The notes under the pieces were generated by a model, which was given only the letters and a program-made list of their open reading frames with translations, was not told the origin of the DNA and ran no database searches. The position numbers and the translations under genes were made by a program. Source: an uncultured Flavobacteriales bacterium (GTDB taxonomy: Bacteria > Bacteroidota > Bacteroidia > Flavobacteriales_D > Sanyastnellaceae). From it: 64,000 bases of DNA. Numbering within the stretch: position 1 is the stretch's first letter; each line of letters starts with the position of its first letter. The stretch spans positions 1-64,000 of the forward strand of contig CALLLH010000016.1 in assembly GCA_938082505.1 (NCBI GenBank). Reading direction: 5' to 3'. Positions 2,020-31,573 of the stretch are shown here, in pieces.

Positions 2020-2976
2020 TCATGTCCAGGCATCGCGCGCGGCGCGAAAGGTCTGGAGGTGAGCGTCCACGATGGTGTTGACTTCGGTCGAGTATCCTCC
2101 ACCCATGGCGCAGACGGCTCCTATTCCGGCCGATCGGCATGCGTCAAAGACCATGATGTCCCGTTGCTTGCACCCCTCCATGGTGAGCGAAAGTCTGCCC
2201 AGACGGTCCGTGAACAGCACATCCACACCGCACTGGTACATCAGGACTTCCGGGCGAAAAGTCTCCATGATGCAATCCAGGGCGCTGTCGAGCTCCTTGA
2301 GGTAGTGTTCATCGGATGTGCCGTCCTCCAGTGGGATGTCCAACGTGCTGATCTCCTTGTGCAGGGGGTAGTTGTTCGCCCCGTGCATGCTCATCGTGAA
2401 GATGCGGGCCTCATTTTGGGTCATGCTGGCCGTACCGTTGCCTTGATGTACATCGAGATCGATGATGGCAATGCGTGCCACACCGAGGTCCAAAAGATGG
2501 TGTGCTGCAATGGCGAGATCATTGAGCAGGCAGAATCCCTCTGCTCGATCGGCAAAGGCGTGGTGCGTGCCTCCAGCGATATTCAAGGCAACACCTCCGG
2601 CCGCTGCGATGAGGGCACAGCGCCGGGTGCCTTCCATGATGATGCGTTCCCTTTCGATGAGGGCGTGTGACCAGGGGAATCCTGATTTTCGCTGTTCCTG
2701 TCGAGTCCATGTGCCGGTATTCAGCTTGCTGAGGTAGTCTGGGGGGTGGCATCGGAGAATGTGGTGGTCCTGAATCGGAGCCGGCCGGATCCAATGTGAG
2801 TCATCAATGATGCCTTCGTAGGACAACTGCTGTTGAAGGAGTGCGTATTTCGGCATGGGGAACCTGTGCTCAGCGGGCAATTCCAGCACATATTCGTCGC
2901 TGTAGGCGGCGAACGGAGATGCGTTATCACGCAATGTGAGGCGAGGGTTTTCATGCTTGGGATTCACTGTCTTCAT
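2020..2976 (-). CDS. Histone deacetylase-family amidohydrolase (class IV/HDAC11-like)
   Basis: Zinc-dependent deacylase of the arginase/HDAC fold, 318 residues from the ATG at 2976. All active-site elements are visible: tandem His (H138, H139) in GGTHHA, the zinc ligands D175 and H177 in DLDVHQGNG, third ligand D257 in the QCGVDVLFTD segment, and the catalytic Tyr in GGGYS (Y295). The EGFCLLNDLAIAA stretch and overall spacing resemble HDAC11 and bacterial deacetylase-like proteins. The substrate is unknown; acetylated proteins, polyamines and small amides are all known for the superfamily. An upstream in-frame extension to 3189 is not used because it adds residues without family resemblance and runs into the divergent gene. 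It is convergent with ribA. Confidence 0.9.
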   Translation of the reverse strand: MKTVNPKHENPRLTLRDNASPFAAYSDEYVLELPAEHRFPMPKYALLQQQLSYEGIIDDSHWIRPAPIQDHHILRCHPPDYLSKLNTGTWTRQEQRKSGFPWSHALIERERIIMEGTRRCALIAAAGGVALNIAGGTHHAFADRAEGFCLLNDLAIAAHHLLDLGVARIAIIDLDVHQGNGTASMTQNEARIFTMSMHGANNYPLHKEISTLDIPLEDGTSDEHYLKELDSALDCIMETFRPEVLMYQCGVDVLFTDRLGRLSLTMEGCKQRDIMVFDACRSAGIGAVCAMGGGYSTEVNTIVDAHLQTFRAARDAWT

Positions 2977-3075
2977 TTGCTGATTGTGTGAATTCAGGTA
3001 AATGCCAATACGTGGAAACGCATCACACTGAATTGTGTTTGCACGCACATTGATCTGTGCATTTGCTTTGTATAA

Positions 3076-4446
3076 ATGTGGAGAGTTGGGTGTAGTCTGC
3101 TTTTTGCGATGCAGGTGGGGGGACTCATCAGCCAGAATCCCCTGCGCCGCATGGATCCGGATGCATGGAAGGATACGGAGGCCGTCCAAAATGCGATAGC
3201 GATGTTTGGCAGCGCTGATTCCGCATACAGTTTCAGGATTTGGTTTGATTCAGGATCGTTCAAGATGCCGGCAGGCGCAGGAGGTGTTTGGTTCAATCGG
3301 GAGGAAGACATGCGTGTGGTCCTTGATTCTGCAGGGACCAGCATAGGTAAAAGCCACAATCATGGGTTCAACTACTATGCCTATCACTTCTATTGGAAGG
3401 ATCGATATTATGCCCTCGGGGGGCGGGGATTCTGGGAGGGACATTCAAAGTTGATTGAATTTGTTCCGGGTACGGGCGAGTGGGAATTGCAACCATGCGT
3501 CAATGCTCCTCATGCAGTGACAAACGAATTGTGCTGGTTCGATGGTTCGGGAGACCGGGTGGTGGCCATTCCTGTTGAAGATTTGAAGAAGGGATGGGGT
3601 GAGGAGGAATTTCCGTACGAGGTTGCCAGCTTGGATTTGAACTCGTTGTCGTGGACGGAATTGGGGGTGGTAAACCCTGTATTGGAGCATTATTTGTCGG
3701 GCAGGACGGGCAGGGTAGATCTTGAAGAGTATTTCATGGTCTACGGGTTGCACAAATCGGTCATCATCCGGAAATCCGATCTCATGGTGGTGGTGTCGGA
3801 TGCGTTCAATTTGGAATTAGTCGATTGGGGGAGGCTTGGTTTTGAGCGGGCTGTAGATTATTGGATTGAGACGGGCCGTGCAGGGATTTTCACGGTTGAA
3901 AAGGCGACGAACCAAGGGCAAGAGCGTTCGACGTTGTTGTCATGGAATGTCGATAGTGTGTTCGCCCAAGGTTTGAAGGAGGCCATTCCATTTGTGATGC
4001 CCAGGACACAACAGAAAGATGTGGAGTTGGATTATGGAGCGTTGGAATGGCTATGGAAACCCACGCTTGCTTCGGTGTTGATTGCCCTGGCGTTTCTTGC
4101 GGGTAGGAGGACTACAGTGTGGCAATCAAGTAGGAAGAGCCAGGCATCCCTGCAAGCAGAGGGAGAGAGGCCTGATCGGCCCAAATATCCGGAGATGAGC
4201 CCATTGACGGCTTCATTTCTTTCGTGCGGAAAGAAATTCATGGATACAGCCGAAATCAATGCCTTTCTGGGCCTGGATGAAGACACTTCGGAAGAGTCAA
4301 AACGATCCAGGCGCGCACAGGCCATCAGAATGGTGAATCAAGAATATCAGATGGGCTTTGGGCAGGATTTGATCGTGCGAGAAAAAGACAGCATCGATCG
4401 CAGGAGAACCACCTATTTCATCCGACCGCACTCAGATAGCGCATGA
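3076..4446 (+). CDS. Single-pass membrane protein with C-terminal cytoplasmic domain, function unknown
   Basis: Not recognised as a named family. The 456-residue protein starts with a signal-like segment, then has about 300 extracytoplasmic residues rich in Trp and Gly-turn strands reminiscent of a Kelch-like propeller (WELQPCVN, LSWTELGVV). A hydrophobic helix follows at about 330-347, then a basic linker and a C-terminal domain of about 85 residues. That last part (DTAEINAFLGL, SKRSRRAQAIRMVN, then DxIDRRRTTYFI) has the look of a compact helix-turn-helix or winged-helix unit followed by a strand. One reading is a membrane-tethered sensor or regulator: sensing outside, output inside. Base composition is more AT-rich than the genes to its right. 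It overlaps the convergent permease gene by 29 bases at the 3' end. Confidence 0.7.
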   Translation: MWRVGCSLLFAMQVGGLISQNPLRRMDPDAWKDTEAVQNAIAMFGSADSAYSFRIWFDSGSFKMPAGAGGVWFNREEDMRVVLDSAGTSIGKSHNHGFNYYAYHFYWKDRYYALGGRGFWEGHSKLIEFVPGTGEWELQPCVNAPHAVTNELCWFDGSGDRVVAIPVEDLKKGWGEEEFPYEVASLDLNSLSWTELGVVNPVLEHYLSGRTGRVDLEEYFMVYGLHKSVIIRKSDLMVVVSDAFNLELVDWGRLGFERAVDYWIETGRAGIFTVEKATNQGQERSTLLSWNVDSVFAQGLKEAIPFVMPRTQQKDVELDYGALEWLWKPTLASVLIALAFLAGRRTTVWQSSRKSQASLQAEGERPDRPKYPEMSPLTASFLSCGKKFMDTAEINAFLGLDEDTSEESKRSRRAQAIRMVNQEYQMGFGQDLIVREKDSIDRRRTTYFIRPHSDSA

Positions 4447-7664: not shown

Positions 7665-10600
7665 TCAATCCACCAGTACGCGGCCGATTGCCGGGGGATG
7701 ATGCCCCGGGGCGTCAGGGCGCACCCGGATGATGTACAGTCCTGAAATTGCGGGTGCCGGCAACTGCATGGACCAGCCGAGCAATCCATCCTGGGCCCCC
7801 ACGCGCAACTGACGGGTCAGTCTTCCTGAAGCATCCCACAGTTCCACGCACCAGGGTCCGGCGCCTTGGAGGCCTTGCAAGCTGATCGGGCCGCCCTGCT
7901 CCACCGGATTCGGGAAGCTCGTCAGTGACATGGGGCCGGCTTGCATGTCTTCGACTGAGTTGGTCAAGGGGTTGCCCTCGCAGTCATAGCCTTCCGCAGC
8001 GTATTCGCACCCACCATCTTCCTCCGTGGCTTCCTCATCGAAGTTGCACGCCTCGGCATCGGTGCACCCCAGGATCTCCGCATTGTCGCAGATGCCATCG
8101 CCATCGAGGTCGGCTTCGCAATCGCCGCCGCATTCGCCGAGGGCGTCGAGGTACTCGCAGCTGCCATCCTCCGTATTGGCTTCCGCATCATAAGTGCAGC
8201 TTTCGGGATCGGTGCATCCTTCGACGACGACCAGTGGGTTTCCATCGCAGTCGAAGCCTTCCGCCGCATACGCGCAACCACCATCCTCTTCTGTCGCCGT
8301 GGCGTCGAAATTGCAGGCCAGCGGATCCGTGCACCCCAGGATCTCCGCATTGTCGCAGATCCCATCTCCGTCGAGATCGGCGGCGCAATCACCACCACAT
8401 TCTCCAAGGGCATCGGGGTATTCGCAGCTGCCATCCTCGGTATTGGCTTCCGCATCATAGGTGCAGCTCAGCGGATCCGTACATCCCTCGACCACGATGA
8501 GGGGGTTGCCATCACAGTCGAGCCCGGGGTCGGCGTAACTGCAGGCACCATTGTCATCGGTCGCCTCAGCGTCAAAATTGCACGCTGTGGCGTCCATGCA
8601 ACCGGGGATCTCGGCATTGTCGCAAATGCTGTCTCCATCGGCGTCGCCGGGACAATCGCCGCCACATTCTCCTAGGGCGTCGAGATAGAGACAACTTCCG
8701 TCATCGGTATTCGCACCGGCATCGTAGCTGCAGCTTGCCGCGTCGGTGCACCCATTGACCACCACGGTGATGTTGCCGTCACAATCATAGTTGGTCGGCG
8801 GATAGGTGCAGTTTCCCGCATCATCGGTGGCCGCGGCATCGTAGTTGCACGCCGCAATGTCTGTGCAGCCTGGAATCTCGGCATTGTCGCAGATGTTGTC
8901 ACCATCAGCGTCACCGGGACAGTCGCCACCGCAATCGCCGAGGGCATCCAGGTACAGACAGGTGCCGTTGTCCGTATTGGCGTCGGCATTGAAGGTGCAG
9001 CTTTGCGGGTCGGTACAGCCTTCTACGACCACAAGCGGGTTGCCATCGCAATCCAGCCCTTCATCAGGATAGTCGCAACCGCCATCCTCATCCGTTGCGG
9101 CAGCATCATAATTGCAGGCGAGGTAATCCGTACAGCCCGGAATTTCCGCGTTGTCACAGATGGCATCACCGTCGGCATCTCCCGGACAGTCGCCACCGCA
9201 GACCCCCAGGGCATCCAGATAGTCGCAACTGCCGTCATCGGTGTTGGCTCCTGCGTCGAAAGTGCAGCTCGCAGGGTCCGTACAACCATCGATCACGACC
9301 GTGATGTTGCCCTGGCAGTCGAAGTTGACGGGAGGGTAGGAGCAATTGTCGGCATCATCCGTGGCCGAAGGATCGTAATTGCATGCATCGGCATCCATGC
9401 AGCCGGCGATTTCGGCGGTATCGCAGATGCCATCACCATCTGCATCCCCGGTGCAGTCGCCACCACATGTGCCCAGCACATCGAGGTAATCACAGCTGCC
9501 ATCGTCGGTGTTCGCAGCGGCATCATAGGTGCAGCTTTCCGGATCGGTGCAGCCCGGCACATCCGGAATCACGATGTCTTCGTCAAAGTCACAAACGCTA
9601 TTTTCATTGAGGTCTGTGCACGGTTCGATAGAACCGCCGGAAATACAGAAGGGGTGCACTTGTTGAGCGCCAAAATTCCCAGCACCGGCGCCGAGCGTAT
9701 TGCCATCCGAGTCCGTCAGCTGATACCATCCCGGAGGCCAATAATGCATTCCATTGCCAAAGAGGTCTGTCACGGTGAGTTCGTAACACCCATTGACGGC
9801 ACAGTTGCTCTCGGAGATCTGCGTGCCTGCATAAACACCGTTGGTGTAATTCCCTCCGGACATGATGGTCTCACCATTGTCCACATTCTCTATCGACCAG
9901 GCAATTCCATACGGCAGGGCATCGAACTGTATGTCCATTTGGAGGAAGTCCCCTTCCAACACGTCGAAGGAGACGATCATGGTGTCATTCAATCCATAGC
10001 CGTCATTGGGTACATCCGTCCAAATGACCAGCTCGTGGGTGCCGGCGCCTGCGGACAATGAGGGCAGCAGGATCATTTCGTTGTCTCCTGCATCGATCGT
10101 TCCGGTCCAATTGAGGGTGTTCTCCGTTCCACCATCGAGCGCAAATTGGATGGTGACCTCGGTCAGGATGTCACTGCCGAAATTCTGAAGGAAGATCTCA
10201 GGAGCCACCGTTGCGGCACAGCCTGAACCAAGGATGCCTTCGATCGAGGTGATTCCGGCATCCACCGCGGAAACAGGAATGGTGCCTTCGCTGGTCAGCA
10301 GCGATGAGCGGTAGCTCTCCAACGAATTCCTCATTCGCGTGCGCTGTCCTTCCGTGAACCAATGCATGCATTGGTCACTCGAGTAGTCCATGAAATTCTC
10401 GACCATGGTCTCAGGACATGAGATGGGCGAGCATCCGATGGCACCGGTCGTAGGTGGTGTATCGCAAACTTTGTCTCCTTGAGAAGAGCAATTCGACTCA
10501 TCCGCACATGAGCTGGTGCCCGCAAAAGTGTGCAGCAAACCCAGATAGTGGCCGAGTTCGTGGGTCAGCGTGCGATTCAGATCGAAATTGACCATCAGGT

Positions 10601-11255
10601 CGTATTCATCTCCGACGCCGAATACCTGGTGATGGACCACAATGCCATCATGGATGCCGGATGTCGGGGGGAGGTAGGCAAATCCAAGAGGGGACGCACC
10701 ACTGTTGATCTTGTAGAGGACCCAGACGTTGATGTAGTCGCTTTCAGGCCACTGGCTCAATGCCTTCACATTGAGTTCCGCGGCGGGGTCCAGGAGGTTG
10801 TTGGTGACCATGCCCGTGGTAGCGAAGCTGGGTATGACGGCCGCGACATCAGTCCGGGTGATGCCGGAGGAAGGGTTTCCTTCCGGATCGCGCGATGCCA
10901 GCTCAAACTCGATGTCAATGTCCGCACCGCCAAATTCTCCTTGGAAGTCTGCATTGAGCGCATCAATCGCGCTGAGAATCTGTGATTCCGACAAATTGGA
11001 GCCTGAACCGATTGAACTGCCATCGTGCATGATGTGCACGACGATGGGCAGGACATGGGGGGTGGTGGTCCTCAGTGTACTGCCTTGCATTTCGGCAAGG
11101 GCAGCTTCGAAGGCAAAGTAGCTTCGGGCGAAGGTCGTGTCCTCCATCAATGCCGCCTGCAATTCGGCGGATTGGCAACGGTCGGTCTGACCTTGGAGGG
11201 CTGCGGTCGAGAGGACGGCAAATAGAATCGAAAGGAAGGATGCCTGAAAACGCAT
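7665..11255 (-). CDS. Secreted M43 (pappalysin-type) metalloprotease with Cys-rich repeats and T9SS sorting domain
   Basis: Extracellular zinc protease of 1196 residues. A signal peptide (about 1-22) is followed by a metzincin domain with the zinc motif [11 protein letters not shown] (H232, E233, H236, H242) and the Met-turn NFMDYS (M289); CDTPPTT and paired Cys match M43 cytophagalysins. A middle part of about 240 residues contains a CARDB-like stretch ([11 protein letters not shown] onward). Then come six tandem 89-residue units (about 565-1097), each with two GCTDxxxCxxD motifs around a DxDGDGICD calcium loop. The last 85 residues (SFPNPV, GxYxxRV, final basic/valine strand) form a type A T9SS sorting domain. 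Likely cell-surface or secreted and calcium-stabilised. It is monocistronic, with about 200 bases of leader region upstream. Confidence 0.93.
7970..9566 (-). repeat. Six tandem 267-bp coding repeats
   Basis: Six in-frame units of about 89 codons each, no spacers. Units 1 and 3 end in a GNITVV-type linker, while units 2 and 4 end in GLDCDGNPL(I/V)VVE, so the array also shows a two-unit (about 534-bp) period. Units 5 and 6 are the most alike (both have [12 protein letters not shown] and [18 protein letters not shown]), pointing to a recent duplication at the C-terminal end. Confidence 0.92.
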
Positions 11256-18599: not shown

Positions 18600-21038
18600 A
18601 TGACCCTCAAGACTTGCGTTTCTGTATTCCTGCTGTCCATCGGTTTGTCCTCCTCATTGTGGGCACAGGATCCTTGCCCGGATGGTGAGCTTGGCTTCAC
18701 TGTCATCATTCAGCCCGATTCCTGGCCCCACGAGATGAGCTGGACCTTGACCGACGGCGATGGGAATATGGTGGTCGAGGCGAATGTCGACAACGGGGCC
18801 GACACGCTTTTCACCTTCTGCATCGATGCGGACGACTGGTCCGACTGCATGTTGTTCACGATGAACGACAGCTATGGGGACGGGTTGTATCCCGGCGCAT
18901 TCTATCAGGTCTGGCTCGAAGGGGAGATGCTGGTGGAAGGCAGCGGCAACTACGGATACGGCCAAACCCATGCCATCGATTGTCCACCGGGCTGGACCTG
19001 CGAGGAGGCGATGGTCATCGGATGGGAGGACGAACCCCTCACCATGTCGGCCGATGCCGATGTGCAATGGTGGCTGTTCACGCCCGAGCAGAACGGCATG
19101 TACGCGTTGTCCAGCTGTGGCACGGGATGCAACACCCGACTCTGGATCTACGACTACTGCAACATGAACAACTTCGACGACACCAACGAAGGGTCCATCT
19201 ATTACGACGACAACCAGGGGGGCTGTGGGGATGATGTGGAAAGCGCCCAGTTGACCGTCCTGCTGGAGGGGGGTGTTTCCTATTGGATCCGGTTTGCGGA
19301 CATCACGGGGGGCTGCGATGGTTTCGAATGGACCTTGGATTACGTGGGGCCACCGGAGGGCTGCATGGATGAGGAGGCATGCAACTTCAGCCCTTCAGCG
19401 GAAGTCGACAATGGAAGCTGCATCTATCCCGGGGATCCCCTGTGCACCGGACCCGATCTGCTCGTCGTGGAGAGCGCCATCGAGAACAGCCTGCAGGCCG
19501 AAACCATGATGGTGGATGAGAACAACTGTTACATCGTGGAGGGGTGTCTGAATGGATACGGAGAGCGGGAATTGGTCCGGTTCACCACCCACATCAAGAA
19601 CATCGGCGACATCGATTACTATATCGGATCCACGTCGAATACGGACTCCACGCAGCAATTCGAGTGGGGAGACTGCCACAACCATTGGCACTATGAAGGC
19701 TATGCCAAGTATGACCTTTTCACACTGGATGGCCAGATGCTGCCCATCGGTTTCAAGAACGGCTTCTGCGTCATGGACCTGGAATGCGGCGATGGCGGTA
19801 CGGCTCAATATGGCTGCGGAAACATGGGCATTTCAGCGCACTGTGGTGACATCTATGGCGCGGGCCTGTCTTGCCAATGGATCGATGTGACGGGCATTGC
19901 CGACGGCATTTACCACTTGGTCGTTCGGGTGAACTGGGATTACAGCCCGGACGCCTTGGGCCGCCAGGAGAACAGCTACGAGAACAACTGGGGTGTGGTC
20001 TGCATCCAGATGGACCGCAGCTCAGGCGAATTGGAGGTGGAGGTCTGGGACGATTGTCCCCAACTCGTGGATTGCGAAGGCACACCATATGGCATGCAGC
20101 AGATGGACTGCACCGGTGAGTGCGGCGGTACAGCCCTCATGGGCGACCTCGATGCGGATGCCGACCAGGACCTGACGGATGCCGAGGCCTATGTGGACGG
20201 CATCCTGGGCAACGACCTCGAGGCGCTCCCGTGCAATGACCTCGATCAAGACGGTGAGTTGACCGTCTCCGATGCGGCCCTGATGGCCCGGTGCCAATTC
20301 TGGGACTTTGCCCACAGTCATCCCGACAGCAGTGGATTCCACGACAAATGCCAATTCCCCGCACCCCACGTGGTCAATCCCTATGACTCGGTGTGGTTCA
20401 CCCTCGGGGATGTCAATTGGGAACAGGGATTCTTCGACGTGCATGTCCTCAATCCCCACAACAGAATCGTGGGTTACCAATTCGATGTGAGCTGTGGCAT
20501 CCAGCAAGTGGTCAGCATGGTGGATCCCCTGGAGTACATGGTGCAGCCGGAGTTCGCCCTCGGGGGCAACACCATCATCGGACTGAGCTATGACAACACT
20601 TCCATGCCCAAGCATTATGAATGGTCGCCGCTGTGCCGCGTGTATTGGACGCAGGCCCCGGAGACGGAGTTGTGCATCAATGGGATCACCGAAGTCGTGA
20701 ACGGCATGTACCAGAACGCCGTGCCTTATCTCGTCAATCCCTGCGCGACGACCAATGGGATCGGTGGAGTTCTGGCCGGAACCTCATTCCAGGTGAGCCC
20801 CAATCCGGTGCAGTCCGGAGAGGCCCTGTGGCTGTCCTTTGGCGGGGGAGACCTCACCGGCGCCGAGGTGCGCTGGGTGGATTTGACAGGACGCATCCTC
20901 CACCGGACGCTGTGGTCCGGAGGCGACCGCTTCCTCCTCGCAACAGAAGGCCGGGCAGCCGGATGTTACCTGGTTCAGGTGGTGGATTCGCGAGAGGGGA
21001 CTGAGGTCCTGCACACGCGCCGGGTTACGGTGCGCTGA
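18600..21038 (+). CDS. Secreted lysyl-oxidase-domain protein with T9SS sorting domain (LOX A)
   Basis: 812 residues with a signal peptide ending LWAQ. Two Cys-containing beta modules (about 24-245) and one GCMDEEACNF unit precede a lysyl oxidase domain (about 285-475). That domain has the copper motif WGDCHNHWH (W356, C359, H360, H362, H364), the lysine that in animal LOX becomes part of the LTQ cofactor (K386 in GFKNGFC), and its partner tyrosine (Y419 in DIYGAGLSCQWIDVT). LOX oxidises lysine side chains to aldehydes for cross-linking. After it come a dockerin-like pair of DxDxDxxLT/DxDGELT loops, a cohesin-like beta domain and a type A T9SS signal (SPNPVQSG to the end). Protein or matrix cross-linking at the cell surface is the likely role. 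A paralogue lies at 27493-30534. Confidence 0.88.
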   Translation: MTLKTCVSVFLLSIGLSSSLWAQDPCPDGELGFTVIIQPDSWPHEMSWTLTDGDGNMVVEANVDNGADTLFTFCIDADDWSDCMLFTMNDSYGDGLYPGAFYQVWLEGEMLVEGSGNYGYGQTHAIDCPPGWTCEEAMVIGWEDEPLTMSADADVQWWLFTPEQNGMYALSSCGTGCNTRLWIYDYCNMNNFDDTNEGSIYYDDNQGGCGDDVESAQLTVLLEGGVSYWIRFADITGGCDGFEWTLDYVGPPEGCMDEEACNFSPSAEVDNGSCIYPGDPLCTGPDLLVVESAIENSLQAETMMVDENNCYIVEGCLNGYGERELVRFTTHIKNIGDIDYYIGSTSNTDSTQQFEWGDCHNHWHYEGYAKYDLFTLDGQMLPIGFKNGFCVMDLECGDGGTAQYGCGNMGISAHCGDIYGAGLSCQWIDVTGIADGIYHLVVRVNWDYSPDALGRQENSYENNWGVVCIQMDRSSGELEVEVWDDCPQLVDCEGTPYGMQQMDCTGECGGTALMGDLDADADQDLTDAEAYVDGILGNDLEALPCNDLDQDGELTVSDAALMARCQFWDFAHSHPDSSGFHDKCQFPAPHVVNPYDSVWFTLGDVNWEQGFFDVHVLNPHNRIVGYQFDVSCGIQQVVSMVDPLEYMVQPEFALGGNTIIGLSYDNTSMPKHYEWSPLCRVYWTQAPETELCINGITEVVNGMYQNAVPYLVNPCATTNGIGGVLAGTSFQVSPNPVQSGEALWLSFGGGDLTGAEVRWVDLTGRILHRTLWSGGDRFLLATEGRAAGCYLVQVVDSREGTEVLHTRRVTVR

Positions 21039-21879
21039 GTTTCCGACGACCTGCGACCGCATTGGCCGTCACGGCGGCCAGGACAATTCCGATGCCTGCA
21101 AGGGCCCAGCCGGTGATGTATTCGTCAAACAAGACCCATGCTGCGCCCAACGCGAGAATGGCGCCCAGGTATTTGATGGGCATGACCCGCGCGGCGTCCT
21201 CGAGGTGCAGGGCCTTGGTCATCGCCACTTGCGCCAACAGGGAGAGCACGCCAATGCCGGCGGCCATGGCCCATTGAGAAGGGGTCATCGGATGCCATAC
21301 CGCTGCGCTCCATGAGCCCATGACGGGGGTGGCGATCATGTGGAAATAGGCCACGATGCCGACCGGGCTGTCGGTGTCTCTGCACTTGATGGTCGCGAGG
21401 TAGGCCACACCGGCTCCGAGGGCGCTGCCCATGCCCATGAGGAGGTACAGCCAACTGACACGGGGGTCGAAACCTTTGACCATGAGGATGCCTCCGAAAG
21501 CCGCTGCGAAATACAGCCACCGATGGGGCCGGATGCGCTGTCCATCGAACAGGATCGCCAGCAGCACAGTGAAGATGGGCGAGAGGTATTGAATGACCGT
21601 GGCGCTCGCGAGGGGGATGTGCCGGATGGTATGGAAGAACAAAGTCAGCGCCACCATTCCCGTTGCGCCCCGGACGACGAGCCATTTGCGGTTGTGTCCC
21701 AGCAGGGGGTCACCCTTGCGCCACAACCACAGGACACAGAAGAACAAACTGACCGCACTGCGGAGGAAAACCAGTTGTGGCGTGGGCAGGATGGCCAGTG
21801 CCTTGACCAGAAGGTTGGCGGAGGTGTACAGCACCACCGATTGCAACATGAAGACCAACCCGCGCGACATCTGCGACAA
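21025..21879 (-). CDS. EamA/DMT-family transporter
   Basis: Inner-membrane protein of 284 residues with ten predicted helices in two EamA repeats (about 7-135 and 150-280). The first repeat carries the LASATVIQYLSPIF segment and the second LEDAARVMPIKYLGAILAL, matching RhaT/S-adenosylmethionine-type drug/metabolite transporters. The substrate cannot be read from sequence. It is the last gene of a same-strand run that begins with icmF (gaps 3, overlap 1, 38 and 35 bases), so export of a branched-chain or amino-acid-derived product is conceivable. Its end overlaps the LOX A end by 14 bases, convergently. Confidence 0.87.
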   Translation of the reverse strand: MSQMSRGLVFMLQSVVLYTSANLLVKALAILPTPQLVFLRSAVSLFFCVLWLWRKGDPLLGHNRKWLVVRGATGMVALTLFFHTIRHIPLASATVIQYLSPIFTVLLAILFDGQRIRPHRWLYFAAAFGGILMVKGFDPRVSWLYLLMGMGSALGAGVAYLATIKCRDTDSPVGIVAYFHMIATPVMGSWSAAVWHPMTPSQWAMAAGIGVLSLLAQVAMTKALHLEDAARVMPIKYLGAILALGAAWVLFDEYITGWALAGIGIVLAAVTANAVAGRRKLSAP

Positions 21880-21914: not shown

Positions 21915-22358
21915 TCAGGGCTTGGAGCGGAACTGCAGGGCGAGTTTCCATCCAAGCCATCCGACAGGGAGGTATCCTCCGATATCGAGGAGGAGGAATC
22001 CCACGGGCTGCCCAGGCAGCATGAAGGCGTTCAATAGGCCTCCCAACAGGACGAATCCGGCTACGATCAGCGGCACCTTCGGGCCGCGGTCGGCTGCGAT
22101 CAATGCCGCCACGAAGGCCCCGCAGAAGGCCCCATTCCAATGGGCGAGCAAAGGCCCCACCATGTGGACGGCGTCCAATGTCTCGAAATAGGCGCTCCAG
22201 GTTTCCTGCATGATGGCGGGGTCCGCGGTCGGATCGTATGCCGGTGCGGCGGGTGCACCCGTGAGTTTCGCCATTGGAGAGAGCAGCATCGCGTTGGCGG
22301 GGATGCTCGCGACGGCACCGGCCACGCCGGCGATGATGTTGCGCAGGGTTGGAGACAT
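21915..22358 (-). CDS. Small membrane protein of unknown function
   Basis: 147 residues with four hydrophobic segments: about 7-27, 68-88, 94-115 and 120-140. The first is an IIAGVAGAVASIPAN type helix often seen in small Bacteroidota membrane proteins; the loop between helices 1 and 2 is rich in Ala, Pro and Asp. No catalytic residues are apparent. A TACGAAC box is 4 bases before the ATG, so it may have its own promoter even though it sits between the aminotransferase and the EamA transporter on the same strand. Confidence 0.7.
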   Translation of the reverse strand: MSPTLRNIIAGVAGAVASIPANAMLLSPMAKLTGAPAAPAYDPTADPAIMQETWSAYFETLDAVHMVGPLLAHWNGAFCGAFVAALIAADRGPKVPLIVAGFVLLGGLLNAFMLPGQPVGFLLLDIGGYLPVGWLGWKLALQFRSKP

Positions 22359-22396: not shown

Positions 22397-23305
22397 TCAG
22401 CACAACGGCAAGGGCACTGCCCGGTCAAAGATCCTTTCGTCATAGGCCTGCTGCAGTTGGCGGGTCAAGGGGCCTTTTTCACCGCGCCCCACTTGGCGGC
22501 CATCCACTTCGATGATGTGGGCGATGGCGCCCATGGTTCCGGTGGTGAACGCCTCGTCAGCAGTATACAGCTCAGTCAGGGTCAGGTCGGCTTCAGCACA
22601 GGAAATGCCGCTGTCAAGGGCTGCATCCATCACGAACCTACGGGTCAGGCCCGGCAAGCAGGCATGGGCAAAGGGGGTCAGCAGTCGGCCATCCCGAACC
22701 ACAAACAGGTTGGTGGCATTGGTCTCGGCCAGGAAGCCACGGTCGTCCAGCATGACGGCATCGTCCACGCCGGCCACATTGGCCTGGATCTTGGCGAGTA
22801 TGTTGTTGAGCAGGTTGTTGTGGTGGATGTGGCTGTCCAGGAATTCCGGGCTGTTGCGGCGGATGGCACTGGTCACGAGTCGGATGCCCTCATCGCCATA
22901 GACCATGCCTTTGTACTCCGGGACGATGATCAGGGTCGGGCCATGAACGTTCAGCCGGGGATCCATGCCGCTGGTCGACTTGCGCCCTCGTGTGAGGGTG
23001 ATGCGGCAGTGCACACCGTCCCGCATGCCATTGGCCTGGAGGGTATCGAAAATGGCGGAGCGAAGGGCCTCACGGGAGGGGATTTCGGAAAAGGCCAACG
23101 CGTGCGCGGAATCGATCAGCCGGGTCAGGTGCTCTTCGAGCTGTATGGCCCTGCCGTCCGTGATGCGCAGGCCTTCCCAGACCGCATCGCCGCCTTGCAC
23201 AACGCTGTCGAGCACATGGACCGAGGCCGCATCCCGGGCAACAAGGCCATTGACCCAGCACCGGGTGTTCTCATTGCGGGCATCAGGTTGATTGAATCGG
23301 GCCAT
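22397..23305 (-). CDS. Class IV aminotransferase homologue with His in place of the PLP lysine
   Basis: 302 residues with the full fold of branched-chain / D-amino-acid aminotransferases: VNG near residue 20, HVLDSVVQGGDAVWEGLR (30-47), EEHLTRL, the conserved Glu (E194) and NLF in LAETNATNLFVV, and TTGTMGAI (254-261), the phosphate-binding Thr motif. The Schiff-base Lys normally lies in an IKxxNxL(x)NxLAK segment; here that segment reads IHHNNLLNNILAK, so position 161 is His. The DNA (about 22817-22860) reads this clearly. Either the protein uses another lysine, binds PLP without a Schiff base, or does something other than transamination. Its start overlaps the sulfotransferase stop by one base (TGATG), and it shares the operon with icmF. 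Confidence 0.85.
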   Translation of the reverse strand: MARFNQPDARNENTRCWVNGLVARDAASVHVLDSVVQGGDAVWEGLRITDGRAIQLEEHLTRLIDSAHALAFSEIPSREALRSAIFDTLQANGMRDGVHCRITLTRGRKSTSGMDPRLNVHGPTLIIVPEYKGMVYGDEGIRLVTSAIRRNSPEFLDSHIHHNNLLNNILAKIQANVAGVDDAVMLDDRGFLAETNATNLFVVRDGRLLTPFAHACLPGLTRRFVMDAALDSGISCAEADLTLTELYTADEAFTTGTMGAIAHIIEVDGRQVGRGEKGPLTRQLQQAYDERIFDRAVPLPLC

Positions 23306-24021
23306 CAGAGTGCGTATTCAAGGAGTTGGGTGTAGGCCTGCAGGCAGCCGTGGTAAAGGTCGTCAAGCCCGGGTGGAACATCCGGATTTGCGGGAGGTCG
23401 GGCCTCCCATCCCGCAGAACGATGGACGCCTCCATACCACCAGGGCGCCCATGGGCCATCCTCGGGACGAGCCCCGGCTTCCCAATGTAGAATGGCCGGA
23501 TCCCATTCCATGTCCAATGCGGCACAGAGCTCCTTCAACTGAGCTTCTGGGGCAGTCTGGAGTCGGTCGCTGCACACGACAACGGGCCGTTTGCCGTCGG
23601 CTTCCAGCCGTTCCAGGATTGCGAGCTGGTGCCCATAGCACAGGTCCTGCATCGTTGGGCGTTCGATGTGGGCTGAATAGGAGGCCATGACGGCGGCCGG
23701 ATTCCGGAAGAGCAGCACGTGCTTTCCTGATTCGAGTCGGGACCAGGGCAGTCCATCGATATGGTTGGCGATGTGCTTGCAGAACAGGATGCGCTCCCCT
23801 TCGCACTCCTGAGCGGACGGACGGATGTGTTCAAGGGCTTCGTCCGGGGCACTGGGCCAGGAGGCCAGGGTGGCTTCTCGGTCTGGACGGTCTACGCCGG
23901 AATGAACCAGGAAGTGACCATACAGCGGTTCATCCAGCACACGGGTGTCCTGCCGTTGGGCGAAACTGTACATGAGCGCGGTGCTCATGGAGCGGGGGCC
24001 GGACCACAGGTGGATGACCAC
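23305..24021 (-). CDS. P-loop sulfotransferase-like protein
   Basis: 238 residues. The N-terminus IHLWSGPRSMSTALMYSFAQR (residues 3-23) is a sulfotransferase-type phosphate loop that in true enzymes binds the 5'-phosphosulfate of PAPS; VLDEPLYGHFL follows as in this family, and VLLFRNPAAVMASY (about 102-115) matches the second (3'-phosphate) motif with Arg-Asn-Pro in place of RDP. Members of this family occur fused to class IV aminotransferase-like domains in plants, and here the two are adjacent and overlapping genes. It starts 3 bases after icmF. The substrate is unknown; a CoA or acyl-CoA ligand would fit the neighbour and the PAPS-like pocket, but this is inference. Confidence 0.8.
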   Translation of the reverse strand: MVIHLWSGPRSMSTALMYSFAQRQDTRVLDEPLYGHFLVHSGVDRPDREATLASWPSAPDEALEHIRPSAQECEGERILFCKHIANHIDGLPWSRLESGKHVLLFRNPAAVMASYSAHIERPTMQDLCYGHQLAILERLEADGKRPVVVCSDRLQTAPEAQLKELCAALDMEWDPAILHWEAGARPEDGPWAPWWYGGVHRSAGWEARPPANPDVPPGLDDLYHGCLQAYTQLLEYAL

Positions 24022-24024
24022 GAT

Positions 24025-27000
24025 TCACATGTTGCGCCGGTAGGCTCCGCCCACTTCGAACAGGGCTTCCGTCAGTTGGCCGAGGGAACAATATTTCACC
24101 GCAACCATCAGCTCCGCAAAGAGGTTGCCGTGCGCCACCGCCGTCTCCATGACGCGGGCAATGGCGTCTTCGCTTCGCTTCGGAAAGGCGCTGTGCAAAG
24201 CGACCAGACCATCGATCTGGGCCTGCTTCTCCTCGGGCGTTGCACGGATGACTTCGCCGGGAACGAGGGTAGGGGACCCTTCCTTGGAGAGGTACGTGTT
24301 GACCCCGATGATGGGGTATTCACCGGTGTGCTTGAGCGTCTCGTAATGAAGGGACTCTTCCTGGATCCGGCTGCGCTGGTACATGGTCTCCATCGCCCCG
24401 AGGACTCCGCCGCGCTCGGTGAGCCGGTCGAATTCGAGCATCACGGCCTCTTCGACCAGGTCGGTGAGTTCTTCGATGATGAAGGAGCCCTGAAGCGGAT
24501 TTTCATTCTTGGCGAGGCCGAGCTCCCGATTGATGATGAGCTGTATCGCGATGGCACGCCGCACGCTGGATTCCGTGGGTGTGGTGATGGCCTCGTCAAA
24601 GGCGTTTGTGTGCAGCGAATTGCAGTTGTCATAAATGGCATACAGCGCCTGCAACGTCGTGCGGATGTCGTTGAAGTCAATCTCCTGGGCATGCAAGGAT
24701 CTGCCGCTCGTCTGGATGTGGTACTTGAGCTTCTGCGCCCGCTCGTCGGCACCGTACTTCCGGTCGAGGGCCTTGGCCCAGATCCGGCGTGCCACCCGGC
24801 CGATGACCGCATATTCCGGATCAATGCCGTTGGAGAAGAAGAAACTCAGGTTGGGTCCGAAGGCATTGATGTCCATCCCTCGGCTGAGGTAGTATTCGAC
24901 ATAGGTGAAGCCGTTGGACAGGGTGAAGGCCAGCTGCGTGATCGGGTTCGCTCCGGCTTCTGCGATGTGGTAACCGCTGATGGAGACCGAATAGAAATTG
25001 CGGACCTGCTGGTCGATGAAGTAGGCCTGAACGTCCCCCATGAGCCGCAAAGCGAATTCCGTGGAGAAGATGCAGGTGTTCTGGGCTTGGTCTTCCTTCA
25101 GGATGTCGGCCTGGACCGTGCCACGCACCTGGCTCAGGGCCTCCGCGGCCAACCGCGAGTACGTGTCGGCGTCGAGGACCTCATCGCCGGTGCAGCCGAG
25201 CAGGAGCAGGCCCAGCCCATTGTTGCCATCCGGCAATTCACCCCGGTACACAGGGCGCGCAAGCCCATGGTCGTCCCACCGGGCCTTGAGCACTTTCTCG
25301 ACATCGCCTTCGAGGCCATGCTCGCGGATATGCAGCTCACAGCGCTGGTCGATGGCGGCATTGAGAAAAAAGGCCAGCACCATCGGCGCAGGCCCATTGA
25401 TGGTCATGGACACACTGGTGGAGGGGTCGCACAGGTCGAATCCACTGTAGAGCCGCTTCGCGTCGTCCAAAGAGGAAACGCTGACACCCGAATTGCCCAC
25501 CTTGCCGTGGATGTCCGGCCGCAGGTCCGGGTCGCGTCCATACAGGGTCACCGAGTCGAAAGCCGTGGAGAGCCGCTTGGCCGGCATGTCAGAAGAGACA
25601 TAGTGGAACCTGCGGTTGGTCCGTTCGGGGCCGCCTTCGCCCGCGAACATCCTTGTCGGGTCTTCTCCTTCCCGCTTGAAGGGATAAATGCCGGCAGTGA
25701 ATGGGAAGGTCCCGGGTACATTTTCCTGCAGGCCCCACCTGAGCAAGTCCTGCCACCCCGTGATTCTCGGGACGCTGACCTTCGGGATGGACTGATGGCT
25801 CAGACTCTTCGAGGTCGTGGGGATCCGTATTTCCTTGCCGCGCACTTCGAATATGAAGTCCTCGGCCTTGTATCGGGCAGCCTCTTCGGGCCACGATTCC
25901 AGCCAGTGGAGGTTTTTGGGGTCCAATTCCCGCGCCAGGGCAGCCGCTTGATCCAGGATGGCATTGTGGGTGTGTTCGTCTCCCTGGAGCTCTTCCGCGG
26001 CCTTCCGCAAGGCCTGAAGGCGCCCCGCAACCTGCGCCTGGGCGTCCGTCCAGTCGTTGTAGCCTCGGACCGTGTCGGCAATCTCGCTGAGGTAGCGGGT
26101 GCGCTTGGGAGGGATCACATGGACCTTCTCGCTTTCGCCCGCAGTGGCGCCGAAGGTGCTGGACAGACCCGCACCGGTTCTTTCCGCCAGCACATTCATC
26201 AACTTGCGGTAGAGCCTGTGGGTGCCCGGATCGTTGAACTGGGAGGCGATGGTGCCGAAGATGGGAAGCGCATCATCTTCCGCGTCCCAGAGTTCGTGGT
26301 TGCGCTTGAATTGTTTCCGAACGTCCCGCAGCGCATCCTGTCCACCGCGCTTGTCGAATTTGTTGATGGCCACCACATCCGCGAAATCGAGCATGTCGAT
26401 TTTCTCGAGTTGCGTGGCCGCACCGAATTCCGGGGTCATCACGTAGAGGGCTACATCGCTGTGGTCCATGATCTCCGTGTCGCTCTGGCCGATGCCGGAG
26501 GTCTCCAGCACGATGAGGTCGAAGCCCGCCACCTTGAGGATGTCGAGGGCGTCCCCCACATGTCGGCTCAACGCGAGGTTGGACTGACGTGTGGCCAACG
26601 AGCGCATGTAGATCCTGTCCGAAGCGATGGCGTTCATCCGGATGCGGTCACCCAGCAGGGCTCCTCCGGTCTTGCGTTTCGAAGGGTCGACGGATACGAT
26701 GGCCATGCGCTTTTCCTCGAAGTCAAGGAGGAAACGCCTGACGAGCTCATCCACAAGGGAGCTTTTTCCCGCTCCTCCCGTGCCGGTGATGCCGAGAACG
26801 GGCACATGCGCCTCTTTGGCGGCGGACCTCAAGCCATCCAGAATGTCCGCATAGGCTTCGGCGCTGACTTCCGCAGCGGTGATCAAGCGGGCCAGATCAC
26901 CGGGGCGCTGCTCCCCGAGGCGGTCAGCTTCTCCCGAGGGCTGGGTCACCACAGGGAAGTCACAACGCCGTATGACATCGTCAATCATGCCCTGCAACCC

Positions 27001-27414
27001 CAATTCCCGGCCATCGTCCGGATGGTAGATGCGCTCGATGCCATACTCCTGGAGTTCCTTGATTTCCTCGGGTAGGATGGTGCCACCACCTCCGCCGAAA
27101 ATCCGGATGTGACCGGCTCCCCGGTCATCCAGTAAATCTTTCATGTACTTGAAGTACTCCATGTGTCCCCCTTGGTAGGAGGTCATGGCGATGGCCTGGA
27201 CATCCTCTTCGATCGCGCAATTCACCACTTCATCCACGGACCTGTCGTGTCCCAGGTGTATGATCTCGCAGCCAGAGCGCTGAAGGATGCGCCGCATGAT
27301 GTTGATGGCCGCATCGTGGCCATCGAACAGGGAGGCAGCGGTGACGATGCGGATCGGATGTCCCGATTGCGTGGCCGCTGGGGTCGGAGCGTCTTTCGGT
27401 TGAGAGGATTCCAT
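24025..27414 (-). CDS. icmF: Fused isobutyryl-CoA mutase with G-protein chaperone
   Basis: Adenosylcobalamin enzyme that interconverts isobutyryl-CoA and n-butyryl-CoA; 1129 residues. The N-terminal B12-binding domain (about 20-150) has D31-x-H33 in LFDGHD, the His that ligates cobalt, and SxxxGG-type loop residues. The MeaB-like GTPase (about 165-420) has Walker [13 protein letters not shown] (K217), a DPS loop and NKFDKRG as the base-recognition motif. The mutase barrel (about 540-1129) has the [18 protein letters not shown] signature. Phe579 after YP matches the ICM type; methylmalonyl-CoA mutase has YPT and Tyr there. The enzyme links valine breakdown to straight-chain acyl-CoA metabolism. 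It heads the operon with the sulfotransferase-like and aminotransferase-like genes. A TAACTTTA box lies about 22 bases upstream of the ATG. Confidence 0.94.
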
Positions 27415-27492: not shown

Positions 27493-30400
27493 TTATTGAC
27501 AGGGGTCTCCAAATAGGCCCAACATGATGAGCAGGTCATTGACCCCGACGATGCCATCCGAGTCGACATCGGCAGGACCGCAGTCGACATCGCAGCCAAA
27601 GACGCCAAGGGCCACGAGCAGATCGCCCACATCGCGAATGCCATTGTCATTGACGTCACCCAGGCAGAACGTGCCGGGGATCACGCATCCGGTGGCGGTG
27701 GCAGCCACGTTGTGCCGGTCTTGGTTGGCGACCTCGGCCATGTCGAGCAGGCAGACCTCCTCCGCAGCATCGGTGAAATGGATCCTGACGAGGGGTTGCG
27801 GAAGGGTGCTCTTGTGGACAAGGCTGTCCTCCAACGCCACGCCGAAAGCGAGACCGCTTGAGCCGAGATGGAAGTAGTGATGGTAGCCGGTGGTATCGAA
27901 CAGGGGCGTCATCTCCGTGAACGTGGCGCCCTCCAGTTGGATGGACCAGGCGCTCAACCACGTTTGCGGATTGTGCACGTAAATGTCCACGAAGCTGGAG
28001 TCCTCATGGGGAAAGGTCATGGAAAAGGCCACTTCCTCGTCCGGAACGAGAAGGGGACCATTCCAGTCGCAGTGGTCTTCGATGCCATTGTCTCCGAGGT
28101 GGTTGTGCCCAAGGTGGGCGCAGTCGGCCGCCAGGGCGATGTCCGTGACGCTCAAAGCACCATCGCCATTCAAATCCACGCAGGGTGCCGAGGTGGTGAC
28201 GCCATCAACGAGGAGATCGGCATAGAGCAGGGGGTCGTCGGCATCGACTTCACCATCCTGGTCGAGGTCGCCCTTCACGAGGAACCCCGGACAGTTGCCG
28301 GCACAGTCGGGCTCTTCACTGCCAAAGGGGTGTCCGAGACAATCAACGGGCACCGGACAATCCTGGTACTTGGCGAAGTTCACGGCATTGCCACTGCCAT
28401 CGCGCTCGAAGGAAAAGCAGACCGCGACGGCGTTGTTCGCATAGTTCAACTCGTAGCTGCCATTGGCGTCCGGACTGTAGTCCCAATTCACGCGGATCAC
28501 GAGGGTGTAATTGCCTCCCGGCAAGTCTGTGATGTCCACCCATTGACAGTCCAGAAATCGCGAATAGATGTCTTGGCATCCCGCTGTGATGCCCATGTTG
28601 GAGCAGGTGTACTTCTGGGGGCCACCGCCGTAATTGCAGCTGCCCAGGTCGAGCACGCAGAAGCCGTTCTTGAATCCGATCGTCGGCAGGGGAGAACCCC
28701 CGTCGTCGTACAGGGCATACTCGGCATAGCCTTCATAATGGTAATGGTTGTGGCAGACATCCCACTCGAATTGGTCCGGCTGGGCAGAGGGGGCTCCGAT
28801 GAAATAATCCTCGGTGCCGATGTTCGCGATCTCGGTATCGAACCGAACGATTTCACGGGTCCCATAGCCCTGAATGCAGCCTTCCGCGATCATGCAGGCA
28901 TCACTGCTGTTCTCGGTGGTCATTTCCAGCGTGCTGTAAGCCCTCGGTCCATTGATGATGAGGTCGGGACCAATGTTGGGGCACTCGGGATCTCCCGCGA
29001 GAAAGCAGGTGTCCGGTGAGGTGGCGATCGGCAGATAGTTGCACGCTTCTATGTTCATGCAACCGGGAATTCCGCCGAGATACTCTGCCACAAAAGGAAC
29101 ACCGTCAGCGCCACTGTTGCAGTCACCGTCCCCTTCGATTCTGATGTAGATGGTTTCTCCGGCGATGAGCACGGGGGTGACCTCGCTCTCGAGGCCACAG
29201 TCGTCATCGGACATCGTGATGAAGGCCTCGGAAGAGGTCTCGAAGACGGCCATGTCGCAATAGTCGTAAAGGTGGATGCGCGTATCACACCCCGTCAGTC
29301 CGCAGGTTGAGAATCGGTATTGTCCCGTCGTATCGACCTGGAAGAAGTACCACGTGTCCGCCATGGGGGCGACGAGGGATTGGAGCTCCGGATCGGGACC
29401 GAAGGTCAAATCCAATGCGCCGTCACAGCTGCTGCCTGGGGGGCAGCCCACCAGCGTCAATTGGGCCGCATCGAAATGTTCACCGTCCCTGAGGGTGGTG
29501 CCGTCGTAGCGGATCTGGTAGGTTCCGCCAATGGAGAATCCATCCGCACCGGAGTCGAACATCCAAACGGATAGACAGCCCTCAGGGACACAGACGTCCA
29601 ACCCTTCCACGCCGCCGAGGTGCAGGGTGTCTCCCGATTCATTGAGGATGGCGAAAGAAGTCTCCTGTGGGAAGGCGTCCGGCGTGATGTCAATTTCGAG
29701 GCGGTGGAGGTTCTCTCCGACACTGATCTGGTCGATGAACGTGGAAGTCCCTCCGAGACCGTCACCCACGGTCAGGGTCACATCATAGATGCCCGGAGCA
29801 TCCCACGTGACTTCGGGAGCGGCTTCGGTGCTCGTCGCGGGGTCGCCGGCCTCAAAGGACCAATCGAGGGTGACCACGTTGCCCATGCTCGCGCTGCCGA
29901 AGGTCGCCACCTCGGGAAGACCACAGGTGGAAGTCCAGTTGAATCCGGCCGAAAGCGGGGGATACAGACAGCTGCCATCATCGGCCATCGCACACGCGTT
30001 GAAATTCAATGCTGCAGGGTCCGTGCAGCCGGGAGCATCCCCTTCGTCGCACAGGCCGACGAGGTCGAGGACCATTGTGTACTCACTCAATGCGCCACTG
30101 GTCCAAGCGTTCATCACTTCGACCAGCCAACAACCAGAGCCGGAAAGGCCGTAGCCGGCCAAGGGGCCGATGGATGCCGTGAAATTCGCATCCGCAGTGG
30201 TGTTCCAGGAGGAAGGCCAACCGCCTGCATCGACGTAGCCGAAACCGGTGTTGTATCCCCCCACCTCGATGCGGTTCCCATTGGGTGCAGTAATGGCCAG
30301 GGCCATGTCTCCGGCCCAGTTGCTGCCCGGGGCTACAATACTCAGGCTGATATCGAAGGATTGCAGGTCGCAACCGGCCGTCACTTCGAAGGCTGCGGAT

Positions 30401-30534
30401 TGACTGCCTGACAGGGCCCCCGCCCAGTTGACTTGAATGGTGTCCTGTGCAACCATGGCGAAGGACGAGAGCGCAAAGGCGATGCCGAACACAATGGCCG
30501 GAATTGGGCGTGGCAATAGACGGCGAGCATACAT
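27493..30534 (-). CDS. Secreted lysyl-oxidase-domain protein with dockerin-like C-terminus (LOX B)
   Basis: 1013 residues from the ATG at 30534, which gives a signal peptide ending MVAQ. In order: a proprotein-convertase P-like domain (about 32-165), a GCTDPAALNFNAC unit, a PKD-like domain, two beta modules homologous to those of LOX A, a GCMNIEACNY unit, the LOX domain (about 530-700), a dockerin-like pair, a cohesin-like domain and a second double dockerin (DVNDNGIRDVGDLL and DVDSDGIVGVNDLL) that ends the protein. LOX residues: W591, C594, H595, H597, H599, K622 and Y657; the K-to-Y distance of 35 equals that of human LOX (K320, Y355). There is no classical T9SS type A or B domain, unlike LOX A. 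It is 78 bases upstream of icmF on the same strand but probably separately transcribed. Confidence 0.86.
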   Translation of the reverse strand: MYARRLLPRPIPAIVFGIAFALSSFAMVAQDTIQVNWAGALSGSQSAAFEVTAGCDLQSFDISLSIVAPGSNWAGDMALAITAPNGNRIEVGGYNTGFGYVDAGGWPSSWNTTADANFTASIGPLAGYGLSGSGCWLVEVMNAWTSGALSEYTMVLDLVGLCDEGDAPGCTDPAALNFNACAMADDGSCLYPPLSAGFNWTSTCGLPEVATFGSASMGNVVTLDWSFEAGDPATSTEAAPEVTWDAPGIYDVTLTVGDGLGGTSTFIDQISVGENLHRLEIDITPDAFPQETSFAILNESGDTLHLGGVEGLDVCVPEGCLSVWMFDSGADGFSIGGTYQIRYDGTTLRDGEHFDAAQLTLVGCPPGSSCDGALDLTFGPDPELQSLVAPMADTWYFFQVDTTGQYRFSTCGLTGCDTRIHLYDYCDMAVFETSSEAFITMSDDDCGLESEVTPVLIAGETIYIRIEGDGDCNSGADGVPFVAEYLGGIPGCMNIEACNYLPIATSPDTCFLAGDPECPNIGPDLIINGPRAYSTLEMTTENSSDACMIAEGCIQGYGTREIVRFDTEIANIGTEDYFIGAPSAQPDQFEWDVCHNHYHYEGYAEYALYDDGGSPLPTIGFKNGFCVLDLGSCNYGGGPQKYTCSNMGITAGCQDIYSRFLDCQWVDITDLPGGNYTLVIRVNWDYSPDANGSYELNYANNAVAVCFSFERDGSGNAVNFAKYQDCPVPVDCLGHPFGSEEPDCAGNCPGFLVKGDLDQDGEVDADDPLLYADLLVDGVTTSAPCVDLNGDGALSVTDIALAADCAHLGHNHLGDNGIEDHCDWNGPLLVPDEEVAFSMTFPHEDSSFVDIYVHNPQTWLSAWSIQLEGATFTEMTPLFDTTGYHHYFHLGSSGLAFGVALEDSLVHKSTLPQPLVRIHFTDAAEEVCLLDMAEVANQDRHNVAATATGCVIPGTFCLGDVNDNGIRDVGDLLVALGVFGCDVDCGPADVDSDGIVGVNDLLIMLGLFGDPCQ

Positions 30535-30544
30535 AAAAAGTAAT

Positions 30545-31573
30545 TTACGATTTCCGGGGCAATTCATCGGCCCTGTTGGCCGCAAAGCGGAACAATTCAA
30601 CCTGTTTGACCAGATTGAGCCGGATGTTGTCCCAGAAGAGGTTGTAATCGGCCACATGCCAATTCTTCATGGCGAACATGCCGGCACCGAGCACCCTCAG
30701 CGGTTTGATCCACAGCATGCCCCGATGCAGCGCTCCCGACAATGCCCCCTTGTGGCGCAATTTGAACCCCCGCGTGATGATGCCTTGATGGGCATCCCAA
30801 TGGTTCCATTGGCCTTCTTCCGGAGTCCAAAGGATGGGATGCACCATGCGGGTATTGCTCATGTGGGTCGCATGGAATTCAGGAACGAAGGACTCTGAAA
30901 AGGTCATCCAACAATGCACGGCACCGACATGGGCCTCACGGTCTGCGAAAGGAATGTATTCAAGGCTGTCTCCGGGAATGGGATAGCCCGGCAGATATGC
31001 AGCAACCAGCCTCGATTGCAGATCGGTGCCATCAAAGAAATCCTGCAGCAAGCGCCATCCATGATGAGCCCCTTGACTGTGGCCGGCAATGATGATGCCT
31101 GCGTTGTCATCGAGCTGATGGATGAAGTGGGTGAATGCACTTCTGATGTCTGTGTAAGCAAGCTCGAGGGCAGCCCGGCTGTCTGCACCGCGCAGAAAGA
31201 AGGTCCTCAGGTGAGCTTGACGGTAGCGGGGAGCGGTGACCCGTCCAACGGAGCGGAAGAGGCTGGCCTGGTGGCGCAAGGGCCATTCATCCGTGATGTC
31301 CGCAATGGCCTTGTCGTCCCAAGCGGCATTCCAGCCGACATCCAACCCCCTGAAGGTGGTGGGGTGGATGAAAAACGTGTGGACCTGATGGGTTTGCTGA
31401 TGGGGAGATACCGGCATCGCAGGAACGCGGGCAGGCCAATCCTTGATGGGGTCGTGCACGGGATGTCTGGCCCAGGCATCTTGCCGGGAATAATCCGGCG
31501 CTGGTGGGGGAGGAAAGGAGGCGAATGGCCCCGGATGCTCCGTTTTGTCCCTGTGGTCACTTCCAAAAATCAT
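30545..31573 (-). CDS. DUF3089 family alpha/beta hydrolase-like protein
   Basis: 342 residues from the ATG at 31573. Family features are the early PVHDPIKDWPARVPAMP stretch, VHTFFIHPTTF, DVGWNAAWDD, and RYRQAHLRTFFL. The nucleophile elbow GHSQG (S166) is part of a lipase/esterase-type fold, so hydrolysis of an ester is likely, but no substrate is known for DUF3089. No clear signal peptide. The start overlaps the pseudouridine synthase stop (ATGA), so the two genes are coupled; an upstream in-frame extension inside that gene is ignored for this reason. Confidence 0.85.
   Translation of the reverse strand: MIFGSDHRDKTEHPGPFASFPPPPAPDYSRQDAWARHPVHDPIKDWPARVPAMPVSPHQQTHQVHTFFIHPTTFRGLDVGWNAAWDDKAIADITDEWPLRHQASLFRSVGRVTAPRYRQAHLRTFFLRGADSRAALELAYTDIRSAFTHFIHQLDDNAGIIIAGHSQGAHHGWRLLQDFFDGTDLQSRLVAAYLPGYPIPGDSLEYIPFADREAHVGAVHCWMTFSESFVPEFHATHMSNTRMVHPILWTPEEGQWNHWDAHQGIITRGFKLRHKGALSGALHRGMLWIKPLRVLGAGMFAMKNWHVADYNLFWDNIRLNLVKQVELFRFAANRADELPRKS

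Follow-up and report, generated by a model that had tools for sequence, protein, structure and literature searches.

A class IV aminotransferase-fold protein without the Schiff-base lysine and its conserved sulfotransferase neighbour in an uncultured Flavobacteriales bacterium

Introduction

The nucleotide-sugar 3-dehydratases ColD, E1 and SpnQ belong to fold type I and act on sugar substrates. In these aminotransferase-like proteins a His replaces the PLP lysine and acts as the catalytic base on PMP (PMC8987622). Within the class IV fold, an aminotransferase-like protein from Variovorax paradoxus (Protein Data Bank (PDB) ID 7z79) has an Asn, N174, at the column of the lysine, and the residue changed in its N174K mutant (PDB ID 9j32) aligns with that same column, so the absence of the lysine in this fold had already been noticed there. 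Lysine-less class IV homologues are already known from this structure. The open-licence papers that we searched yielded nothing on 7z79 or N174K or on the gene pair reported here, nor any description of a clade across phyla with His at this column and a fixed sulfotransferase partner.

The stretch of DNA analysed here (the window, 64,000 nucleotides of contig CALLLH010000016.1 from an uncultured Flavobacteriales bacterium) encodes a class IV aminotransferase-fold protein with His161 at the lysine column (hereafter AT) and, next to it, a Sulfotransfer_5 protein (hereafter ST). The features of the locus are collected in Table 1.

Table 1. Features of the AT locus and residues discussed in the text, with positions in the window.
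Feature	Position	Strand	Basis or remark
AT, class IV aminotransferase-fold protein without Schiff-base lysine, 302 aa, ATG start	22397..23305	(-)	ORF, PF01063, AF2, best PDB match 7z79
ST, Sulfotransfer_5 protein of 238 aa that starts with GTG, directly upstream of AT	23305..24021	(-)	PF19798 144.7 bits, cut-off 23.2
TGATG, in which the ST stop and the AT start share one base	23303..23307	(-)	
Segment D157-SHIHHNNLLNNILA-K172 with the lysine position	22790..22837	(-)	
His161 codon CAC, column of the canonical PLP lysine	22823..22825	(-)	His in 107/107 clade rows; Asn in sister clade
His159 codon CAC	22829..22831	(-)	Lys in 98/98 other H161 rows; Arg in N161 sister rows
Glu194 codon, presumed pyridine-nitrogen glutamate	22724..22726	(-)	Kept in 107/107 H161 rows; Thr in 12/12 N161 rows
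Lys132 codon	22910..22912	(-)	Invariant in 119/119 lysine-less rows; approximate position of BCAT pocket Trp
Lys109 codon	22979..22981	(-)	Lys in 119/119 lysine-less rows; the lysine-bearing rows have another residue here
IcmF, fusion of isobutyryl-CoA mutase and GTPase, upstream of ST at a distance of 3 bp	24025..27414	(-)	NF045497 1755 bits, cut-off 1500; linkage in this order only
147-aa protein, no family assigned, downstream	21915..22358	(-)	Syntenic in genus
EamA transporter, downstream	21025..21879	(-)	Syntenic in genus

Results

AT matches the Aminotran_4 profile (PF01063) with 152.3 bits for a cut-off of 28.5, and it stays below the thresholds of the IlvE profiles TIGR01122 (ilvE_I, 210 vs 245.55 bits) and NF006185 (236 vs 363). 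Its AF2 model (pLDDT 93.7) matched fold IV enzymes with TM values of 0.83-0.92, which places the protein in PLP fold type IV. The best structural matches were 7z79 (39% identity) and its mutant 9j32, both with a TM of 0.92, followed by archaeal BCATs such as 5mqz (TM 0.89, 38% identity).

The position of the Schiff-base lysine of fold type IV transaminases, at the end of the strand that precedes the helix, is occupied in AT by His161, as the earlier note had claimed. The AT segment DSHIHHNNLLNNILAK aligns without gaps with the archaeal BCAT segment NIKSLNYLNNILAK, in such a way that the lysine of 5mqz (...NIKSLNYLNNILAKIEA) falls on residue 161, and this column is K in 30/30 sampled lysine-bearing rows, one of which (L002, PabC-like) is only loosely aligned. 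The register is fixed by a lysine-bearing homologue from a Thiothrix plasmid that reads DSRIKSLNYLNAILA, with R at column 159 and K at column 161. The gap-free register and the DSRIK of Thiothrix rule out that the lysine found at column 159 in relatives is the canonical one. A sequencing error or a private mutation is also ruled out, since the DNA is unambiguous, as had been stated before, and identical His codons were seen in independent genomes of the genus.

Homologues were collected by similarity searching among relatives (299 genomes of the order and 395 of the phylum) and by a scan of 84,980 species. The contig scan used the pattern DS[KH]IHH[NA]N and was biased toward the motif; pattern-free similarity searches of genomes gave the same states. 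In the resulting alignment of 119 lysine-less rows, column 161 is His in each of the 107 rows whose column 159 is H or K, and the other 12 combine R159 with N161. The earlier note had proposed an alignment to see if the HHNN segment is fixed; H161 is invariant across at least 11 named phyla (Bacteroidota, Rhodothermota, Planctomycetota, Chloroflexota, Poribacteria, Gemmatimonadota, Latescibacterota, Pseudomonadota, Acidobacteriota, Verrucomicrobiota and Calditrichota), where many sources are draft metagenome bins and single phylum assignments may be wrong. The substitution is thus a trait of the whole family, which that note overlooked.

In the tree, the lysine-less rows form one branch (support 98/98), which points to loss of the lysine of column 161 at its base. 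This branch is made of two sister clades, one with H161 (93/95) and one with N161 (99/99), the latter being the group of 7z79. AT lies outside the Variovorax-type clade and has the features of the H161 clade, namely D157-[SP]-[KH]-I-H161, E194, K109, K132, H99 and an adjacent Sulfotransfer_5 gene. The H161 substitution is old and under strong selection.

The Glu and Thr motifs, which had been described as intact, are indeed present in AT as E194, T221 and T255-G-T257, together with R62. By assignment from E. coli IlvE, we take E194 to be the pyridine-nitrogen residue and R62, T221 and T257 the phosphate residues of fold type IV transaminases. As with E194 (Table 1), R62 and T221 are invariant in the H161 rows, and column 257 is Thr, or Ser in a few rows. 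This retention suggests continued selection for a B6 pocket in the H161 clade, and because the N161 rows carry T194 (Thr or Ser in the 7z79 group), the persistence of E194 with H161 appears selective rather than due to inertia.

BCATs (such as archaeal 5mqz and 5cm0, and TIGR01122 ilvE_I) share with AT the fold, Glu194, R62, T221 and T257, but they carry the Schiff-base lysine and a pocket Tyr and Trp where AT has His161, H99 and K132. H99 and K132 presumably take the places of Tyr95 and Trp126 of E. coli IlvE, which would turn a hydrophobic side-chain pocket into a cationic one; this difference in the substrate pocket was absent from the earlier note. Besides K109 and K132, the lysine-less rows have H99 and E130 invariant (119/119), and H99, K109 and K132 are common to AT and nearly all the sampled 7z79 relatives. 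The earlier note had named another conserved lysine in the active site as a finding that would refute its reading. The alignment offers candidates for such a lysine in K109 and K132, which were absent at those columns in the sampled lysine-bearing rows, and, in H161 relatives outside the window lineage, in K159.

At column 159, His is found in the readable members of the genus except one (G003), and in a genome of another genus (G227) whose sister (G025) has lysine; two changes are needed on the tree. With both His159 and His161, the window protein is left without any lysine in the segment before the helix, and the earlier note had not mentioned this second lost lysine. As every lysine-less row carries a basic residue (K, H or R) at this column and the lysine-bearing Thiothrix protein has R, we read it as a conserved charge, which would have an electrostatic role rather than that of a Schiff-base lysine.

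The neighbour ST is a partner of AT conserved across phyla, a relation that the earlier note missed. The two genes share a strand in 137/137 readable pairs and are mostly separated by no more than 15 bp. ST precedes AT in the H159/K159 clade, apart from a few cases, and follows it in the N161 clade. In the window, the start of AT overlaps the stop of ST (TGATG), so the translational coupling proposed before is plausible. Among 299 Flavobacteriales genomes, 88 have both genes, 2 only AT, 3 only ST and 206 neither, in such a way that the pair co-occurs in 88 of the 93 genomes holding either (Fisher p 2e-69, inflated because kinship is ignored); the pattern holds across genera. ST is the sole neighbour of AT that recurs across many phyla. 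No ST was found near 28 sampled Bacteroidota BCATs, and 34 of 140 K159 loci had no ST match within the DNA stretch examined per locus.

In contrast to AT, the sampled proteobacterial relatives of 7z79 lie mostly in amino-acid ABC transporter operons with no adjacent sulfotransferase. Plasmid N161 homologues from Paracoccus, Pantoea and Pseudomonas (L195, L196 and L197) were seen beside amino-acid ABC transporter genes, with no annotated sulfotransferase near them. These loci are a second context for the lysine-less fold.

ST retains the motifs GPRxxSTA and RxP...S, which resemble those of PAPS sites (5'- and 3'-phosphosulfate motifs). Its AF2 model (pLDDT 97.2) had sulfotransferases as best Foldseek matches, with E values down to 6e-7 and low or modest TM values (0.4-0.6) at 13-18% identity; a sequence search gave no solved structure for ST. 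By motifs and modelled fold, ST is a putative PAPS sulfotransferase. Among the fold matches are the ST domains of curacin and olefin synthases, which sulfate so as to make a leaving group. Unlike these domains and TPST, ST has a fixed aminotransferase-fold partner. Plant BCAT-like proteins may include sulfotransferase-aminotransferase fusions, which we take as a lead only.

With regard to the rest of the neighbourhood, IcmF keeps the same gene order throughout the genus and is nearby in related genera, and it is ruled out as a core partner because its neighbour cluster turned up in no phylum other than Bacteroidota. A PADLOC search for an anti-phage role gave no match. The operon lies between two large secreted proteins in which lysyl oxidase domains (PF01186) were matched, at 18600-21038 (+) with E 3e-29 and at 27493-30657 (-) with E 2e-30, the second of them also with PKD domains. 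Farther away, the window encodes a secreted protein that resembles M43 metalloproteases and contains numerous GCTD...DGSC repeats (7665-11255, (-)) and a histone-deacetylase-family protein (2020-3189, (-), PF00850 E 3e-58).

The genome to which the window belongs carries CysD and CysN, together with an APS-kinase-like gene that is cut off where its contig ends (L233 and L232; contigs C40 and C18). No PAPS reductase was seen in this draft, in which CysD alone matched PAPS_reduct, so activated sulfate may be used for sulfation rather than reduction. With a draft that is 95% complete, and with ST and AT present in another genome (G020) that has no APS-kinase match, this supply for sulfation is suggestive only.

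Discussion

AT is a member of an old lysine-less class IV branch in which His161 has taken the place of the Schiff-base lysine. The explanation that we rank first, although tentatively, draws on the parallel of H161 and E194 with ColD/E1. AT may retain a non-covalently bound PLP or PMP by means of Glu194 and the phosphate residues, and His161, perhaps with His162 (or His159 in the window genus), may provide the acid/base function usually supplied by the lysine. H99, R101, R106, K109 and K132 would bind an anionic or sulfated substrate, and AT would work with ST in a complex or in consecutive steps. Against this stands that ColD and E1 are of fold type I whereas AT is of fold type IV, so they are convergent analogues and no homologues. 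The K159 loci in which no ST match was seen, and G020 with its pair of genes but no APS-kinase match, count against it as well. A bolder version, to which we give little credence, is that ST makes a sulfate ester from a hydroxyl and a ketimine of AT-bound PMP expels the sulfate, with His161 as the base; if true, fold IV would carry out a ColD-like reaction in which sulfate is the leaving group.

The second explanation, possible and nearly as likely, is that AT has lost B6 chemistry and is a non-catalytic subunit of ST, which binds a ligand, presents the substrate or has a regulatory function. It stays close mainly because Bacteroidota N161 relatives without E194 also adjoin ST, in such a way that both lysine-less clades are paired with the same ST family in this phylum and the role tied to ST may do without B6 chemistry, which also counts against non-covalent catalysis. 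The near-complete co-occurrence of both genes fits a subunit as well. A continuous ST-AT reading frame of 517 aa in a Cryomorphaceae draft genome (L112, 4341-5891) goes in the same direction, but weakly, since it was found in one draft and the genes are unfused in its close relative L101. On the other hand, a scaffold would need none of E194, R62, T221 and T257, which are kept across phyla in the H161 clade, and the proteobacterial N161 proteins encoded in amino-acid ABC transporter operons point to a use of the fold apart from ST. The first two explanations take in the options of the earlier note, namely PLP bound without a Schiff base, another ligand or a regulatory role, and the evidence does not decide among them.

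Third, and unlikely, AT could be an ordinary PLP enzyme whose internal aldimine is formed by a relocated lysine, either K109 or K132, or K159 in relatives. The invariance of K109 and K132 in lysine-less rows, and the lack of both in lysine-bearing ones, would agree with such a relocated aldimine and counts to that extent against the explanation based on His161. The presence of K159 in all H161 rows outside the window lineage also speaks for a relocated lysine. However, K159 was lost to His in the window lineage and in a separate one (L117) with ST kept in both, and the gene is under strong purifying selection in the genus; the constant basic character of column 159, with R in Thiothrix, fits an electrostatic role; and K109 and K132 are just as invariant in N161 rows without E194.

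Finally, the idea that AT is a decayed copy drifting neutrally since the loss of its catalytic residue, for which frameshifts in two related drafts (G012 C52 and G016 C24, the latter pointing to an assembly error as ST is broken there too) could speak, has a negligible probability and is ruled out by pairwise dN/dS values of 0.04-0.13 in the H159 group (the same range as in K159 relatives), along with the fixation of H161 across phyla and species and the conserved operon, in agreement with what had been proposed before.

Rather than being a broken gene, AT together with ST probably marks an activity of two proteins that has yet to be described. Annotations as class IV aminotransferases in many phyla cover lysine-less, ST-linked proteins, and in every such case the transfer of a BCAT function is probably an error. 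The H161 clade, which has Glu194, and the N161 clade, which lacks it, offer a natural series on the fate of a B6 fold after the loss of its lysine, and the ST partner gives a direct handle for substrate discovery.
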